Source of the DNA: Aggregatibacter aphrophilus ATCC 33389
Lineage (GTDB): Bacteria > Pseudomonadota > Gammaproteobacteria > Enterobacterales > Pasteurellaceae
Assembly: GCF_900636915.1 (NCBI RefSeq)
Contig: NZ_LR134327.1
Span: forward strand, 1,922,001-1,986,000
Length of the DNA: 64,000 nt
Direction of reading: 5' to 3'
The first letter of the stretch is position 1. Each line of letters opens with the position of its first letter. The notes below the pieces were generated by a model. It did no database searches. It worked only from the letters and a program-made list of their open reading frames with translations, and was not told the origin of the DNA. Shown here one piece after another: positions 8,063-26,663 of this stretch. The translations under genes were made by a program, and so were the position numbers.

Positions 8063-8778
8063 TGGATAAAGTAAACGACATCACAGAAGTAACCGCAGAT
8101 GGTCAATCTACCGAAAATAAAAGTGCGGTAAATATTTCAAATGAAAAAAGCATTTGGAAAACCATTTTCGTTCAAGGCATTTGGACCAACAACTCCACGG
8201 TGGTGCAACTTCTTGGCTTGTGCCCGTTACTTGCCGTTTCTAACACCGCCACTAATGCCCTTGGTTTAGGCTTGGCCACCATGCTGGTGCTAACCTGTAC
8301 AAATACGGTGGTGTCCATTTTCCGTAAACATATCCCAAACGAAATTCGGATTCCGATTTATGTCATGATCATTGCGACCACCGTGACCGTGGTGCAATTA
8401 TTGATGAACGCCTATACCTATCAGCTTTATCAATCGCTCGGTATTTTTATTCCGCTTATCGTCACCAACTGTATCGTTATTGGTCGCGCGGAAGCTTTTG
8501 CCTCCAAAAACAGCATTTCCCATTCCGCATTTGACGGTTTCTCTATGGGGTTAGGCATGTTGCTTGGCTTAGTTGCCCTCGGCGGTATCCGCGAAATCAT
8601 CGGTAACGGCACATTATTCGACGGCATTGAAAACTTACTGGGTGATTGGGCGAAATTCATGCGAATTGAGTTTTTCCATAACGACAGTAATCTGCTACTT
8701 GCCATTCTTCCACCAGGAGCGTTTATTGGACTGGCATTGTTATTAGCCTTAAAAAACATCATAGATACAAAAAAGTAG
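8062..8778 (+). CDS. rsxE: Rnf/Rsx electron transport complex subunit E
   Basis: Integral membrane subunit homologous to RsxA; the two pack as an inverted pair in the complex. At 238 residues it has a polar N-terminal extension of about 30 residues and six predicted membrane segments. Conserved motifs are [21 protein letters not shown] and [20 protein letters not shown]. An uptake signal (AAGTGCGGT) is embedded near codon 21. It is translationally coupled to rsxG and is the last rsx gene; nth follows after a structured 211-base gap. Confidence 0.96.
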
Positions 8779-22261: not shown

Positions 22262-22379
22262 ATGAAACTTATCAGTGTTGCCTGGGTGGCGAAATTGGTA
22301 GACGCAGCGGATTCAAAATCCGCCGTTGAATAAACGTGTCGGTTCGAGTCCGACCCTAGGCACCAATGATAAGTTTCAT
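22262..22379. repeat. Perfect 13-bp inverted repeat flanking tRNA-Leu
   Basis: ATGAAACTTATCA (22262-22274) upstream and TGATAAGTTTCAT (22367-22379) downstream of the tRNA are exact inverse complements, so the precursor RNA can pair just outside the acceptor stem. The right arm is also part of the repeated attachment sequence seen again near 26652, where it has one mismatch. Confidence 0.85.
22280..22365 (+). tRNA. tRNA-Leu, anticodon CAA
   Basis: An 86-base class II tRNA with encoded CCA. Acceptor stem GCCTGGG pairs with CCTAGGC with one G-T pair. The anticodon stem GCGGA/TCCGC encloses loop TTCAAAA, giving anticodon CAA for TTG codons. A long variable arm and GGTTCGAGTCC T-arm complete it. 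Its 3' end is the left attachment site of the following island and remains intact. Confidence 0.97.
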
Positions 22380-22676: not shown

Positions 22677-23012
22677 ATGTCTAATTTAGCAACTCAACTT
22701 CAAGATAAATTGTATAAACAACGTATTTTAGGCAAAATGACCACCGATAACGGATACTCCACCATTACAGAAAGCGATATCGTGTTCACCAATACCAACG
22801 TGAAATAATATATTGGCGAGGGCGCTTATTCATTCAACTTAAACTGTGAAACACGCACTAAGCGTTTGCAAGGCCTACTGGCTGGGGGGATTATGGTATT
22901 AAGCGACAACCCGCCTTATCGTCCGTTTGAAATAACAGAAGACTTATTCGACACCGCAAAGATTATTTGGAAGTTTATTAAAGCGGTGGAATTAAAACCG
23001 AAATATTTATAA
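22677..23012 (+). pseudogene. Small island gene interrupted by in-frame TAA
   Basis: Starts ATG 22677 behind AACAGGAG. After 43 codons (ending FTNTNVK) there is TAA at 22806-22808, then the same frame continues YIGEGAYSFNLNCETRTKRL and NPPYRPFEITEDLFDTAKII to the stop at 23012, giving 112 codons overall. The product is not recognised. The continuous register suggests a single nonsense mutation in a formerly 111-residue protein. It lies 22 bases before the BRCT gene and may have been in its operon. Confidence 0.65.
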
Positions 23013-23034
23013 TTTTTTAACTTTGGAACTAACC

Positions 23035-23922
23035 ATGAAAGACGAATTGTATAGCTACAATTATGTGCGGAATCGCAATAAATTGTTTGCAAACTTAATC
23101 AGTATTATTGATGGTATTACCTGTGATGGTGAGATTACCGAACAAGAATTGCTTTATCTTGATACTTGGCTACTTGAAGCCAAATCTCTACAGGACAATG
23201 TCATTTTTCAACAAATCCGCGATCACATTATCGATATTCGTTTTGATGGTAAAGTGACAAAAGATGAATTAAAAGAACTCAAATCCACACTACTTCTCAT
23301 TCAACGCGACATTCTAGACCTTCCAAACATTGACCTTTACTCAAAAGAATCCGATATGCACTTATTGTCCGGTTTGTGTAAAGGGATGATTTCCGACAAT
23401 AAACTAAACGATGATGAAATTCGCTATCTGAACTGGTGGCTAAGCCAAAATGGCTTGTTAAAAAATAACTATCCGGGTAGTGAACTATATCGCCTAGTCA
23501 CAGATATTCTTGCCGATGGCATTATCACGGAAGAAGAACGTCTCCAATTAAAATATATGCTCACTGATTTTACCGGTAGCGATCCTGAAAATGGCGTAGT
23601 TGACGGGTTATCTATGGGAAAATCATTTTTTGATGATGTGTCTGATATTGATTTTGCTAATAAGGTGCTTTGCTTTACCGGAAAATTTGTTTATGGCTCA
23701 CGTGCAAAATGTGAAGAAAAAGCACATGAACTTGGTAGCCTTCCAATAAAAGATTGGCGAACTGATTTAGATTATTTAATTGTTGGCACTCTCAATTCTC
23801 GCGATTGGATTTATCAAAGTTTCGGTCGAAAAATTGAAAAGGCAAAAGAATATCAAAAACAGGGGCATAAGGTAAAGGTGATCACTGAGGAACAGTGGCT
23901 TAGTAATGTTATGGGGAGCTGA
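23035..23922 (+). CDS. TerB-like repeats plus C-terminal BRCT domain protein
   Basis: A 295-residue cytoplasmic protein. The N-terminal two thirds has three acidic helical repeats of similar layout, each like the metal-binding turn of TerB/tellurite-resistance-type domains: DGITCDGEITEQELLYLDTWL, KGMISDNKLNDDEIRYLNWWL and DILADGIITEEERLQLKYML. The C-terminus (residues ~205-290) is a BRCT fold: NKVLCFTGKFVYGSRAKCEE, DYLIVGTLNSRDW, KVKVITEEQWL. BRCT domains usually bind phosphoprotein or DNA ends. ATG 23035 was chosen over a TTG 12 bases upstream. Island gene; function unknown. Confidence 0.75.
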   Translation: MKDELYSYNYVRNRNKLFANLISIIDGITCDGEITEQELLYLDTWLLEAKSLQDNVIFQQIRDHIIDIRFDGKVTKDELKELKSTLLLIQRDILDLPNIDLYSKESDMHLLSGLCKGMISDNKLNDDEIRYLNWWLSQNGLLKNNYPGSELYRLVTDILADGIITEEERLQLKYMLTDFTGSDPENGVVDGLSMGKSFFDDVSDIDFANKVLCFTGKFVYGSRAKCEEKAHELGSLPIKDWRTDLDYLIVGTLNSRDWIYQSFGRKIEKAKEYQKQGHKVKVITEEQWLSNVMGS

Positions 23923-23924
23923 TA

Positions 23925-24149
23925 ATGAAAAAACTACTCTTAATTTTAATCGCACTTTGTTTGATTTACGCCCCCACCCTTGCCAAAGGCAAAAAAGCCG
24001 ACGCAGAACAGTTTAGCTGTGACGATGGCAAACGCACCTGCAAAGATATGGATAGTTGTGCCGATGCCAAATTTCATTTGAGAGAATGCGGCATGCAGAA
24101 ACTGGATAGGGATAGAGACGGTGTACCGTGTGAGAGTATTTGTGGGTAA
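23925..24149 (+). CDS. Exported Excalibur-domain calcium-binding protein
   Basis: A 74-residue protein with a clear Sec signal peptide (MKKLLLILIALCLIYAPTLA) and a mature part ending in the Excalibur motif LDRDRDGVPCESIC, where Asp residues form the calcium site. Four Cys before it (FSCDDGKRTCKDMDSC, LRECG) and two within it suggest disulfides in the periplasm. It starts three bases after the BRCT gene stop, so the two are co-translated. Such domains often accompany extracellular nucleases; here the domain stands alone. Function unknown. Confidence 0.8.
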   Translation: MKKLLLILIALCLIYAPTLAKGKKADAEQFSCDDGKRTCKDMDSCADAKFHLRECGMQKLDRDRDGVPCESICG

Positions 24150-24235
24150 TGGAAGAAATAAACCTAAAATTTAGCAAAGTAATAAATTAAAAGTTTATAA
24201 ATTAACCCGCTACTTTTATTTATTTTTGAGGTTCT

Positions 24236-25225
24236 ATGAAAAAAAGAAAAAATATTTTTAGATGCCCTAGGATTTTTACTATATATAACAATGAATACAG
24301 GAACGAATCTCTAGCCTTTATAAATTCTTTAGATTTAATTATAAAAAATAATCTTACTGAAGTAACTATTAGCTTTTTTTCTTGCATTGATATAAAAGCT
24401 GCTGCCATGGTGTTACTTTATTCTAAATTAGAAACCATACTTGCGAGCAGTCATGTTAAAATCCATTTTTTATTTTCGCCTTTTTATGGTGATTTGCAGC
24501 TTTTGTTAAAAAAATCTGGATTCGCTTATTTGCTAAAACACAGAAAGTCTAAAAATAACCTTGAACGTGGGCAAGAAGGAATGCCGATCATTAGTGGAGT
24601 TGGAGGGAAATTTAGAGATGAGATAATTGATTTCATACAATATCAAATTTATAAAAATAAATTAACCCCTGAGCAAGAACATATTTTAAGTGATGCTATT
24701 TATGAAGCAATAAATAATGTTACTTTGCATGCTTACCCAGAACATGACGCTTGTCACCGTCCATGGTGGCTAATGTGTGATTTATTTGAGAATGAATTAT
24801 ACTTAGTACTTTATGACCAAGGTTCTGGAATACCAAAAACATTTTGTAAGGGAAACAAGCTTTTTGATAGTATAGATTGGGAAAGTGATGAAGCTAAACA
24901 AGTTTTAACAGAGTTAATTGATAAGTTTGGATTATCTCAAAATATATCTATCCCTTCTATTGAAGCAATATCAACATCAGAATCTACAGCTATTCATCTA
25001 GCTATGACCGATGACATAACTCGAATGACCGGTAAAGATGAAGAAAAACACGGGCAAGGCAGCAAAAGTATAAAAAAACTTGTATCATCTCACGAAAATG
25101 GTACTCTGTGGGTGTTTAGCTGCGGAGGACTAATGAAATATCTTAATGATGACACTCTTCCAGAATTAGTTGATTTACCTATACCAATTAATGGTACATT
25201 GATACAATGGAATATAAAGGTTTAA
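24236..25225 (+). CDS. GHKL-type ATPase with N-terminal STAS-like region, cassette gene 1
   Basis: A 329-residue protein. The first ~110 residues resemble a STAS-like fold (TEVTISFFSCIDIKAAAMVLLYSKL). The second half holds a histidine-kinase-type ATP-binding fold: N-box DAIYEAINNVTLHAYPEH (~163-180), G1 box LVLYDQGSGIPKTF (~200) and a later G2-like GQGSKSIKKLV. There is no phospho-acceptor His module or membrane segment, so it is an anti-sigma-type or effector ATPase rather than a sensor kinase. The ATG follows TGAGGT. It is followed by the DUF4325 gene three bases later. Strongly AT-rich. The pairing of such ATPases with DUF4325 proteins is known from genomic islands; the role is unknown. 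Confidence 0.7.
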   Translation: MKKRKNIFRCPRIFTIYNNEYRNESLAFINSLDLIIKNNLTEVTISFFSCIDIKAAAMVLLYSKLETILASSHVKIHFLFSPFYGDLQLLLKKSGFAYLLKHRKSKNNLERGQEGMPIISGVGGKFRDEIIDFIQYQIYKNKLTPEQEHILSDAIYEAINNVTLHAYPEHDACHRPWWLMCDLFENELYLVLYDQGSGIPKTFCKGNKLFDSIDWESDEAKQVLTELIDKFGLSQNISIPSIEAISTSESTAIHLAMTDDITRMTGKDEEKHGQGSKSIKKLVSSHENGTLWVFSCGGLMKYLNDDTLPELVDLPIPINGTLIQWNIKV

Positions 25226-25227
25226 AT

Positions 25228-25599
25228 ATGACCATAAATGAAATAAATGTTATCAAAGACTTCTCTAAAAAACCCTATGGTAGATCACCTGAAAAAGTGA
25301 TGAAAGGGGAAGAGAATGATACTGGGTTGGTTTTTAGAGAAAAACTGCTTGCACCTCGTCTAACTGATTGTATATCAAAAAGGAATAAGTTAAGAGTTAT
25401 ATTAACTGGATATAACCGTTATGGGCGTTCTTTTTTAGATGAGGCTTTTGGTGGTTTAATTCGAGATGATGGGTTCACCTATAAGCAGTTGGAAGATTAT
25501 TTGGATATTGAACACAAAGATGTACAATCTATTGTTGATTTATCTTGGGAACGTATAAAGAAAGCGGCCCTAGATAAGGGGCAAATTAATGAAGATTAA
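25228..25599 (+). CDS. DUF4325 STAS-like protein, cassette gene 2
   Basis: A 123-residue protein matching the STAS-like DUF4325 pattern: FSKKPYGRSPEKVMKGEEN at the start, VFREKLLAPRL in the middle, and the hallmark GYNRYGRSFLDEAFGGLIRD (residues ~65-85), in which the Ser-Phe-x-x-Glu-Ala-Phe segment is typical. STAS domains often act as partners of GHKL ATPases, as in SpoIIAA/SpoIIAB switching, which fits the upstream gene. The start at 25228 lies three bases after the ATPase stop. Its end overlaps the next gene by 11 bases. Confidence 0.72.
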   Translation: MTINEINVIKDFSKKPYGRSPEKVMKGEENDTGLVFREKLLAPRLTDCISKRNKLRVILTGYNRYGRSFLDEAFGGLIRDDGFTYKQLEDYLDIEHKDVQSIVDLSWERIKKAALDKGQINED

Positions 25600-26116
25600 G
25601 TCATTCTTATTGATTTCATTTGTAATTTTAGTCACTATTTATTTTATTCGGATCTGTACTCAAAACACCAGTATAGACGAGCATTTTGCAATTATATCAT
25701 CATCTGTAATAACTGCTGTAGGTTGGTCTATATCTTCATATTTGAACACTCGTAGTTTTCAACGTAGTGAAATTATAAAAAACAAAGATCATATTACAAA
25801 TCTTATTGATGCCTTATTTCGTGAGTTATTAGAATTAGCAGAGAAACGCTCAACATCAATAGAGGATATAGACAATTTTATAACTACTAGAGTAACCATA
25901 ATTGAGTTTAAAGCCAATCAGTTAGAAAAAATTTTCAAAGAAAATTGTCAGTTTATTTCTAATGAATCATTAACAGAACTACGCTCTAAACCAATAGATA
26001 TTTTTGAAAACAGTCATTCTAATTATAAAGAATTAAACCAACAATTAAATCAATTAAAGAACTCTTTATATCAAGATATTGAAGATAATTATAATTCTTG
26101 GCTAAAAAATCAATAA
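25589..26116 (+). CDS. Two-TM protein with cytoplasmic helical domain, cassette gene 3
   Basis: A 175-residue protein with two membrane helices near the N-terminus (FLLISFVILVTIYFIRIC, and IISSSVITAVGWSISSYL after a short loop), followed by a long charged helical region (residues ~55-175) with heptad-like leucines, probably cytoplasmic. No family is recognised. Its ATG overlaps the DUF4325 gene end by 11 bases, showing translational coupling. The layout ATPase, STAS-like protein and membrane protein suggests a switch acting on the membrane. A terminator follows directly. Confidence 0.6.
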   Translation: MKIKSFLLISFVILVTIYFIRICTQNTSIDEHFAIISSSVITAVGWSISSYLNTRSFQRSEIIKNKDHITNLIDALFRELLELAEKRSTSIEDIDNFITTRVTIIEFKANQLEKIFKENCQFISNESLTELRSKPIDIFENSHSNYKELNQQLNQLKNSLYQDIEDNYNSWLKNQ

Positions 26117-26137
26117 TTTTATTTAACATCTAAAAAT

Positions 26138-26166
26138 AGCGGTCATCTGACCGCTTTATTTTTTAT
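26138..26166 (+). terminator. Terminator of the island cassette
   Basis: AGCGGTCA (26138-26145), loop TC, TGACCGCT (26148-26155) and a T-rich tail form an 8-bp intrinsic terminator 20 bases after the two-TM gene. Confidence 0.85.
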
Positions 26167-26371
26167 CCTTCCTCACCTCTCCCCCATTATCCTCAACCTT
26201 CAATTCACACTCCACTTGTGACACATAACCATTGCCAGCAATGGTGTGGGTCACTCTGGTGATAAGCCAATTTGCCGCGTCGATTTCCGATTTAAAGCCT
26301 GAAAGTTCCAGTGGGGTTTCCGGCATCAACATCGGGTCGCCGTAGGCTAAATCAATGGTGAAGGTTGCCAC
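26156..26371 (-). pseudogene. C-terminal fragment of phage late control gene D (tail protein)
   Basis: About 70 codons of the C-terminal part of a P2-type gpD tail protein: LAYGDPMLMPETPLELSGF and AANWLITRVTHTIAGNG are the recognisable stretches. There is no proper start; the frame opens at a GTG inside the domain and the remaining ~300 codons are absent. It lies near the right boundary of the tRNA-Leu island and shows that phage DNA contributed to it. From 26372 to 26636 no gene was seen. Confidence 0.7.
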
Positions 26372-26636: not shown

Positions 26637-26663
26637 ACCCTAAGGTACCAATGATAAGCTTCA
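26637..26663. other. Right attachment-site-like repeat of the tRNA-Leu end
   Basis: Imperfect copy of 22353-22378 containing ACCAATGATAAG exactly, with one extra A, one C-to-T and one T-to-C change. It marks the right boundary of the island. A weak hairpin with T-run (26674-26699) follows and may be the original terminator downstream of the tRNA before insertion. Confidence 0.65.

Follow-up and report, generated by a model that had tools for sequence, protein, structure and literature searches.

A three-gene operon in a stretch of 64,000 nucleotides from Aggregatibacter aphrophilus ATCC 33389 (contig NZ_LR134327.1, positions 1,922,001 to 1,986,000; hereafter the window) is, on our present balance of judgement, a prophage cargo cassette that encodes a kinase switch triggered by infection or damage. 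The product of the first gene (g1), a predicted GHKL kinase, would act on that of the second (g2), a DUF4325 protein, which would then free that of the third (g3), a small predicted membrane protein, and so halt the cell before another phage multiplies. Phage defence is the likely role of the cassette, as predicted from its resemblance to described kinase switches. The operon occupies positions 24236-26116 of the window on the forward strand:

24236 to 25225, + strand: g1, predicted kinase with an N-terminal alpha/beta domain and a C-terminal GHKL domain
25228 to 25599, + strand: g2, DUF4325 protein (PF14213) with an invariant Ser68
25589 to 26116, + strand: g3, small protein with hydrophobic N-terminal segments, predicted membrane effector
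26138 to 26155, + strand: hairpin terminator of 7 pairs, 3' of g3, listed for both strands

This layout confirms the operon of GHKL ATPase, DUF4325 and membrane protein genes with a terminator that a preliminary description had read from the letters of the window. A promoter scan returned fewer sites than shuffled sequence, and no promoter is claimed. That description had also proposed an undescribed system, in agreement with which five proteins of the window, g1, g2 and g3 among them, gave no match in PADLOC at E<=10. In PHROGs, g1 belongs to phrog_3364 (E 5e-45), and g2 matches phrog_5816 over the latter's C-terminal part (E 4.1e-8). Neither family has a functional annotation. Full-text literature searches, within the listings and passages they returned and apart from supplements and most subscription papers, found no account of the cassette as a system.

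The three genes travel together. Scans with a g1 profile gave 22 genome loci and 21 viral contigs; with a Vibrio conjugative plasmid, Marinobacter phage AS1 and the window itself these make 46 places, 41 of them non-redundant. Genes for g2 and g3 follow an intact g1 in 46 of 46 (g3 of the Avibacterium locus L004 is frame-broken), and a Vibrio alfacsensis plasmid carrying all three brings the count to 47 of 47 in the same gene order. Of 14 more divergent loci inspected, 12 have g1 and g2 with a small gene in third place; the exceptions are L053, with a broken g1, and L060, without a cassette. An independent scan with a g2 profile gave 210 viral stretches, of which 208 were confirmed and 80 kept. 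Genes stand on both sides of g2 in 75 of these 80 loci, 66 of which are non-redundant, and the upstream gene has a GHKL N-box in 63 of the 66. The five loci without an upstream open reading frame by our rule include four that lie less than 0.5 kb from a contig end, the other being L154. Gene calls in all loci are crude longest-frame calls, and a number of the labels given to neighbouring genes come from reading by eye.

Among genomes the cassette is rare, and its distribution is scattered: matches to the g1 profile occur in 8 genomes out of 369 in the class and in 10 out of 140 in the family, with the genome of the window counted. Six plasmids were found with g2 and four inspected (all except H5 and H8). 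All three genes are annotated in L002 (Vibrio scophthalmi) and in Vibrio alfacsensis, and all three frames are present, the third unannotated, in L186, a Novosphingobium plasmid. On an Acinetobacter plasmid (L185:3481-4791), g1 is truncated next to an IS3-family transposase; g2 and g3 keep their reading frames.

The ATP-binding boxes of g1 noted from the letters alone are borne out by its fold and its relatives. A fold search assigned residues 113-329 to a SpoIIAB-like ATPase domain, and the nucleotide-binding boxes are all present in 93 of 93 aligned g1 proteins (L129 was omitted from the alignment). An AlphaFold2 model places an alpha/beta domain at about residues 1-110, and the fold matches mainly cover 108-329. 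Sequence searches give fainter signals: Pfam returned only a weak HATPase_c_2 match, and the g1 profile searched against PDB sequences found six chains, among them four SpoIIAB chains with E 0.67-0.74. Profile comparison of g1 with g2 gave no match. PADLOC matches over 24 g1 proteins were weak and scattered (three families, one member each) and were not used.

The assignment of g2 to DUF4325 stands, at 27.2 bits against a Pfam gathering cut-off of 23. Its STAS-like fold is putative: a fold search listed no clear STAS match, and the STAS label is Pfam's naming. VapS and CapS, two STAS proteins of described switches, were absent from that listing, an absence that carries no weight. A g2 profile searched against PDB sequences returned two aminotransferases only (E 0.41-0.43). 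In an AlphaFold2 model (mean confidence score, pLDDT, 92.8), a helix at 67-79 follows a strand at 55-58, with Ser68 at the helix N-end. This serine is kept in 41 of 41 non-redundant loci collected through g1; invariance was counted in that set only, because the g2 search pattern forces the serine. By comparison, 27 of 30 fetched DUF4325 loci of the class (L075-L104) have a motif without the serine ('GQAFADE', 'GQGFVDE' or 'GPAFADE'), which in most cases lies in a single chain of 338-424 amino acids; two carry the serine, both of them cassettes, and one is ambiguous. Most of the serine-less proteins are chromosomal, with a layout resembling helix-turn-helix (HTH), GHKL and DUF4325 domains in that order.

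The g3 protein of the window has two N-terminal hydrophobic segments followed by a basic stretch and a helical-looking region. Its family is seen only through gene order, because a phmmer search with g3 alone finds six proteins, itself included. So gathered, the family has a median length of 175 amino acids; 84 of 93 members have an N-terminal hydrophobic segment, after which lysine and arginine are richer than before it in 76 of the 84, and 27 of 93 have a C-terminal one. In the 20 closer relatives W46 and R59 never vary, while G45, E61, K66, D67, E106 and E165 are almost constant. Over 80 members the mean column identity is 11%, from which we infer that g3 evolves fast, as do effectors and sensors facing phages. 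The window protein gave nothing above cut-off in Pfam and no VapC/PIN match. Over the 80 members, Pfam matches were spread over ten families, each matched by a single protein (best E 8.5e-4), and were taken as chance; the sole PIN-like match was marginal (E 0.0094), and no other known toxin domain rose above chance level. PADLOC matches were weak and scattered (LeoBC in 7 of 80, best E 2.5e-4) and were not used. In the Avibacterium locus, g3 (L004:11342-11886) is split into frames of 83 and 98 amino acids, with g1 and g2 intact.

The closest described system, VapKSC, comprises a kinase, the STAS antitoxin VapS and the toxin VapC, which VapS holds (PMC13373217, EMBO J 2026). It guards E. coli against phage Bas42 and needs VapS S48, VapC D28 and VapK F54, the protection being abolished by VapS S48A and by VapK F54A (PMC13373217). 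Our cassette shares with it the order of predicted kinase, putative substrate with a conserved serine (STAS-type in VapKSC) and predicted effector, a GHKL domain without an HTH (Pfam gave no HTH match in g1 or g2 at E<=10) and, in some cases, defence genes nearby. A possible further likeness is a near-invariant phenylalanine early in the kinase: Phe47 of g1, present in 91 of 93 proteins, is a candidate counterpart of VapK F54, the aromatic residue at the single-stranded DNA site. In VapKSC a STAS domain precedes the GHKL domain of the kinase; in g1 the modelled alpha/beta domain, largely outside the fold matches, occupies that place. The differences are that the third gene of VapKSC encodes a VapC/PIN nuclease and ours a small predicted membrane protein, that g2 is a DUF4325 protein, and that our cassette is widely phage-borne with a preferred place behind CI repressor genes. 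Since the place of VapC is taken by a predicted membrane protein, and g2 is of the DUF4325 family, we read the cassette as a membrane-effector variant of a VapKSC-type switch that stands outside VapKSC itself.

A second relative is the pair CapK and CapS (PMC13373217). CapK is a STAS-GHKL kinase that is activated by single-stranded DNA, phosphorylates CapS, and answers to single-stranded DNA and DNA damage. The likeness is that of a GHKL kinase with a STAS partner phosphorylated on serine, the phosphorylation being a result for that pair. Unlike g1 and g2, CapK has an N-terminal HTH and CapS a winged one, and CapS represses a neighbouring immune operon, whereas g3 lies inside the operon. Two other published candidates were set aside: the GHKL-Shedu protein of PMC12137116 is different from this cassette, as is the entry in PMC9341999, where a name only is listed.

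By analogy with CapK and VapK, and given the near-invariant Phe47, the trigger may be single-stranded DNA or something like it, sensed by g1. The activated kinase would phosphorylate the invariant Ser68 of g2. Unphosphorylated g2 would inhibit g3 and phosphorylated g2 would let go of it; freed g3 would damage the membrane and the cell would be halted before another phage multiplies. Expression in the lysogen is suggested because the cassette often follows a CI gene.

The surroundings of the operon, which the preliminary description called a tRNA island, call for a different account. Judged from its sequence, the island is a decayed P2-like prophage in a tRNA-Leu gene, with these further features:

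22280 to 22365, + strand: tRNA-Leu (CAA), found by ARAGORN, putative attachment site of the decayed prophage
22362 to 22373, + strand: att-like repeat ACCAATGATAAG on the left, spanning the 3' end of the tRNA gene, from alignment of both ends
22795 to 23012, + strand: remnant of a CI-type (S24) repressor gene that keeps the C-terminal part and lacks the 5' part, limits set by eye from translation
23023 to 23922, + strand: cargo gene of 299 amino acids, its C-terminal stretch BRCT-like by a weak match (NCBIfam PRK06195, E 1.1e-5, below cut-off)
23925 to 24149, + strand: Excalibur-domain small protein (PF05901, E 1.1e-7; signal peptide by eye), left border of the cargo slot
26156 to 26371, - strand: C-terminal end left of a phage gpD gene (P2 tail/late control), running towards the cassette
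26647 to 26658, + strand: right att-like repeat ACCAATGATAAG, from alignment of both ends

Between the att-like repeats the order is thus CI tail, 299-residue gene, Excalibur gene, cassette and gpD tail. Prophage record L026 has a CI gene (identified by PF00717 and our own profile), three small genes, the cassette and a convergent gpD. Positions 22899-23002 of the window match the end of its CI gene at 79.8%, and 23924-26347 align with it at 83%, the alignment reaching position 11807 of L026, inside its gpD (PF05954, E 1.3e-17). At the site of the 299-residue gene L026 has two other genes, and its gene at 8175-8684, between CI and the cassette, matches PADLOC PDC-S48 (E 4.4e-7). In Avibacterium L004 the tRNA-Leu of window positions 22280-22365 is matched 1.4 kb ahead of the cassette, which is followed by gpD frames on the opposite strand. 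A gpD (PF05954) occurs in 14 of 40 records or genomes searched and stands beside the cassette only in L026 and L004. Although the surrounding phage genes have been lost, g1, g2 and g3 are under purifying selection: the ratio of nonsynonymous to synonymous substitution (dN/dS) is 0.125, 0.030 and 0.220, respectively, against L026, and 0.073 (g1) and 0.207 (g2) against L004.

The Excalibur gene holds the same position in sister prophages, and a scan with its protein gave 26 viral loci. Contents of the slot between it and gpD were counted in the first 15 (L205-L219; in L217 and L218 gpD lies beyond the fetched stretch), the remainder (L220-L230) being of other phage types by eye or too short, with L220-L223 inspected. 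Five slots are empty (L212, L214, L215, L216 and L219), one contains this cassette (L205, which is record L026 again) and nine contain other cargo; the ten occupied slots have eight different contents. Among these are a Schlafen AlbA_2 protein, a DUF3800 protein with a match to PDC-M04A (E 1.3e-32) and two paired proteins with an ABC-3C domain that match PDC-M68A/B (E 1.9e-59 for the B protein). Of ten slot cargo proteins compared with PADLOC, six gave no match at E<=0.001 and four did, one of these being weak. The slot is a variable hotspot between conserved phage genes that also holds candidate defence genes. It resembles the antiviral hotspots of P2/P4 and the Vibrio cI-int region (PMC9122126, whose main text, supplements aside, does not contain the terms GHKL and STAS), which are likewise small, variable prophage or satellite cargo slots holding defence systems; it differs in lying between an Excalibur gene, behind CI, and gpD in Pasteurellaceae-type P2-like prophages. 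The interval from CI to gpD in such prophages is a place to look for new defence genes, for which the slot proteins of 373 (L211) and 169-178 amino acids (L206, L208), all without assignment, are candidates.

Elsewhere the cassette shows a preference for the region behind a repressor. A same-strand CI-type gene lies within about 0.7 kb upstream in six of seven divergent Pasteurellaceae genomes, the seventh, G423, having none there. Of 66 viral loci, 19 have a CI gene less than 1 kb upstream and 1 has it less than 1 kb downstream, counts that are lower bounds since they rest on our own profile. A published table for Francisella phage KIRK lists CI, a hypothetical protein, DUF4325 and a hypothetical protein with a transmembrane segment consecutively, without function (PMC7924643). 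An integrase or CI gene was present in the stretch taken from 14 of 22 genome loci and in 2 of 16 control stretches from the same genomes (of 20 requested, two did not exist and two below 2 kb were dropped). The profiles derive in part from these very loci, and we do not lean on this biased comparison. Other settings also occur. An integrase gene stands immediately ahead of the cassette in L006-L008, confirmed by Pfam in L006, and Pfam also confirms an Ogr/Delta gene downstream of it in L007; this recalls the P4 satellite hotspot of PMC9122126. In L031 a portal gene is upstream and the next gene downstream matches PD-T7-4 (E 1.6e-7); L038 has a SIR2-domain protein behind the cassette, and L018 a DNA methyltransferase two genes upstream of it. 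Five of ten cassette neighbours matched PADLOC, but these were picked by hand and give no rate. In L044 (9875-11818) the cassette sits among tail genes, about 0.9 kb from tail protein L upstream (PF05100, E 5.3e-78), an unusual place for cargo.

The phage-defence interpretation offered in the preliminary description is supported in part, by the co-occurrence of the genes, the cargo slot and the precedent of VapKSC with its tested protection (PMC13373217), with the tRNA island corrected to a prophage. The cassette is associated with prophage and satellite cargo slots, this slot holding candidate defence genes in sister prophages, and less so with chromosomal defence islands.

The frequent place close behind CI would also suit a lysogeny-control or induction module, in which g1 senses DNA damage and g2 and g3 tune induction, lysis timing or the host membrane for the resident prophage, with other phages not the target; that CapK, the nearest described kinase, answers to single-stranded DNA and DNA damage (PMC13373217) fits as well. 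We nonetheless consider this unlikely. The cassette is also found directly behind integrase genes (L006-L008), on Vibrio plasmids and among tail genes (L044), and it survives intact in a prophage now devoid of CI, where control of induction would be useless.

Somewhat less probable again is toxin-antitoxin addiction, with g3 as membrane toxin, g2 as antitoxin and g1 as modulator keeping a mobile element in the cell. The cassette does occur on mobile elements, and in the analogous operon VapS is an antitoxin and VapC a toxin (PMC13373217). Addiction to a lost prophage, however, does not require purifying selection on a chromosomal remnant (dN/dS 0.03-0.22), and a dedicated kinase with invariant boxes would seem superfluous for plain addiction.

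Least credible, and very improbable in our estimation, is a classical partner switch in which g1 is an anti-sigma factor freed by g2, the output is transcription and g3 is a membrane sensor: g1 has the SpoIIAB fold and matches NCBIfam RsbW and SpoIIAB weakly, but its scores (19.4 against a 145-bit cut-off, and 16.3 against 135 bits) miss the equivalog cut-offs by far, and the cassette is mobile and host-diverse, which makes a fixed regulon unlikely. Equivalence of g1 to RsbW or SpoIIAB was rejected on these scores. The cassette differs from SpoIIAB/SpoIIAA and RsbW/RsbV in its extra N-terminal g1 domain, the absence of a sigma factor from the operon and the membrane third gene. Among the neighbours listed, the sole sigma-like gene by eye is rpoS-like, in the chromosomal flank of L016, 4.8 kb off and across mutS-like and integrase genes.

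The position behind CI invites comparison with the rexAB genes of lambda, which lie co-directionally behind CI and encode a soluble sensor and a membrane output. This likeness is one of place and general layout; the cassette differs in having three genes and a kinase-type sensor. Extending the reading of the cassette as an infection-triggered kinase switch, we tentatively entertain a bolder possibility, which we hold with some doubt: that it represents a large, undescribed phage-borne immune family, in which a GHKL kinase would read replication intermediates of an infecting phage, DUF4325 would serve as phospho-switch and a fast-evolving membrane effector would collapse the envelope. Such a family, expressed behind CI in the lysogen, would correspond to RexAB with three parts in place of two and would extend the VapKSC principle to the membrane.

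An unnamed phage family, made up of phrog_3364, DUF4325 and a small membrane protein and with its g2 motif in 208 viral stretches, is thereby tied to a candidate mechanism open to immediate test, since the mutants to build are known from VapKSC. If the proposal is true, kinase-STAS switches would be a general chassis with swappable effectors acting on transcription, RNA (as RNases) or the membrane, and in temperate phages the version with a membrane effector would lie behind the repressor gene, at the place of rexAB in lambda.
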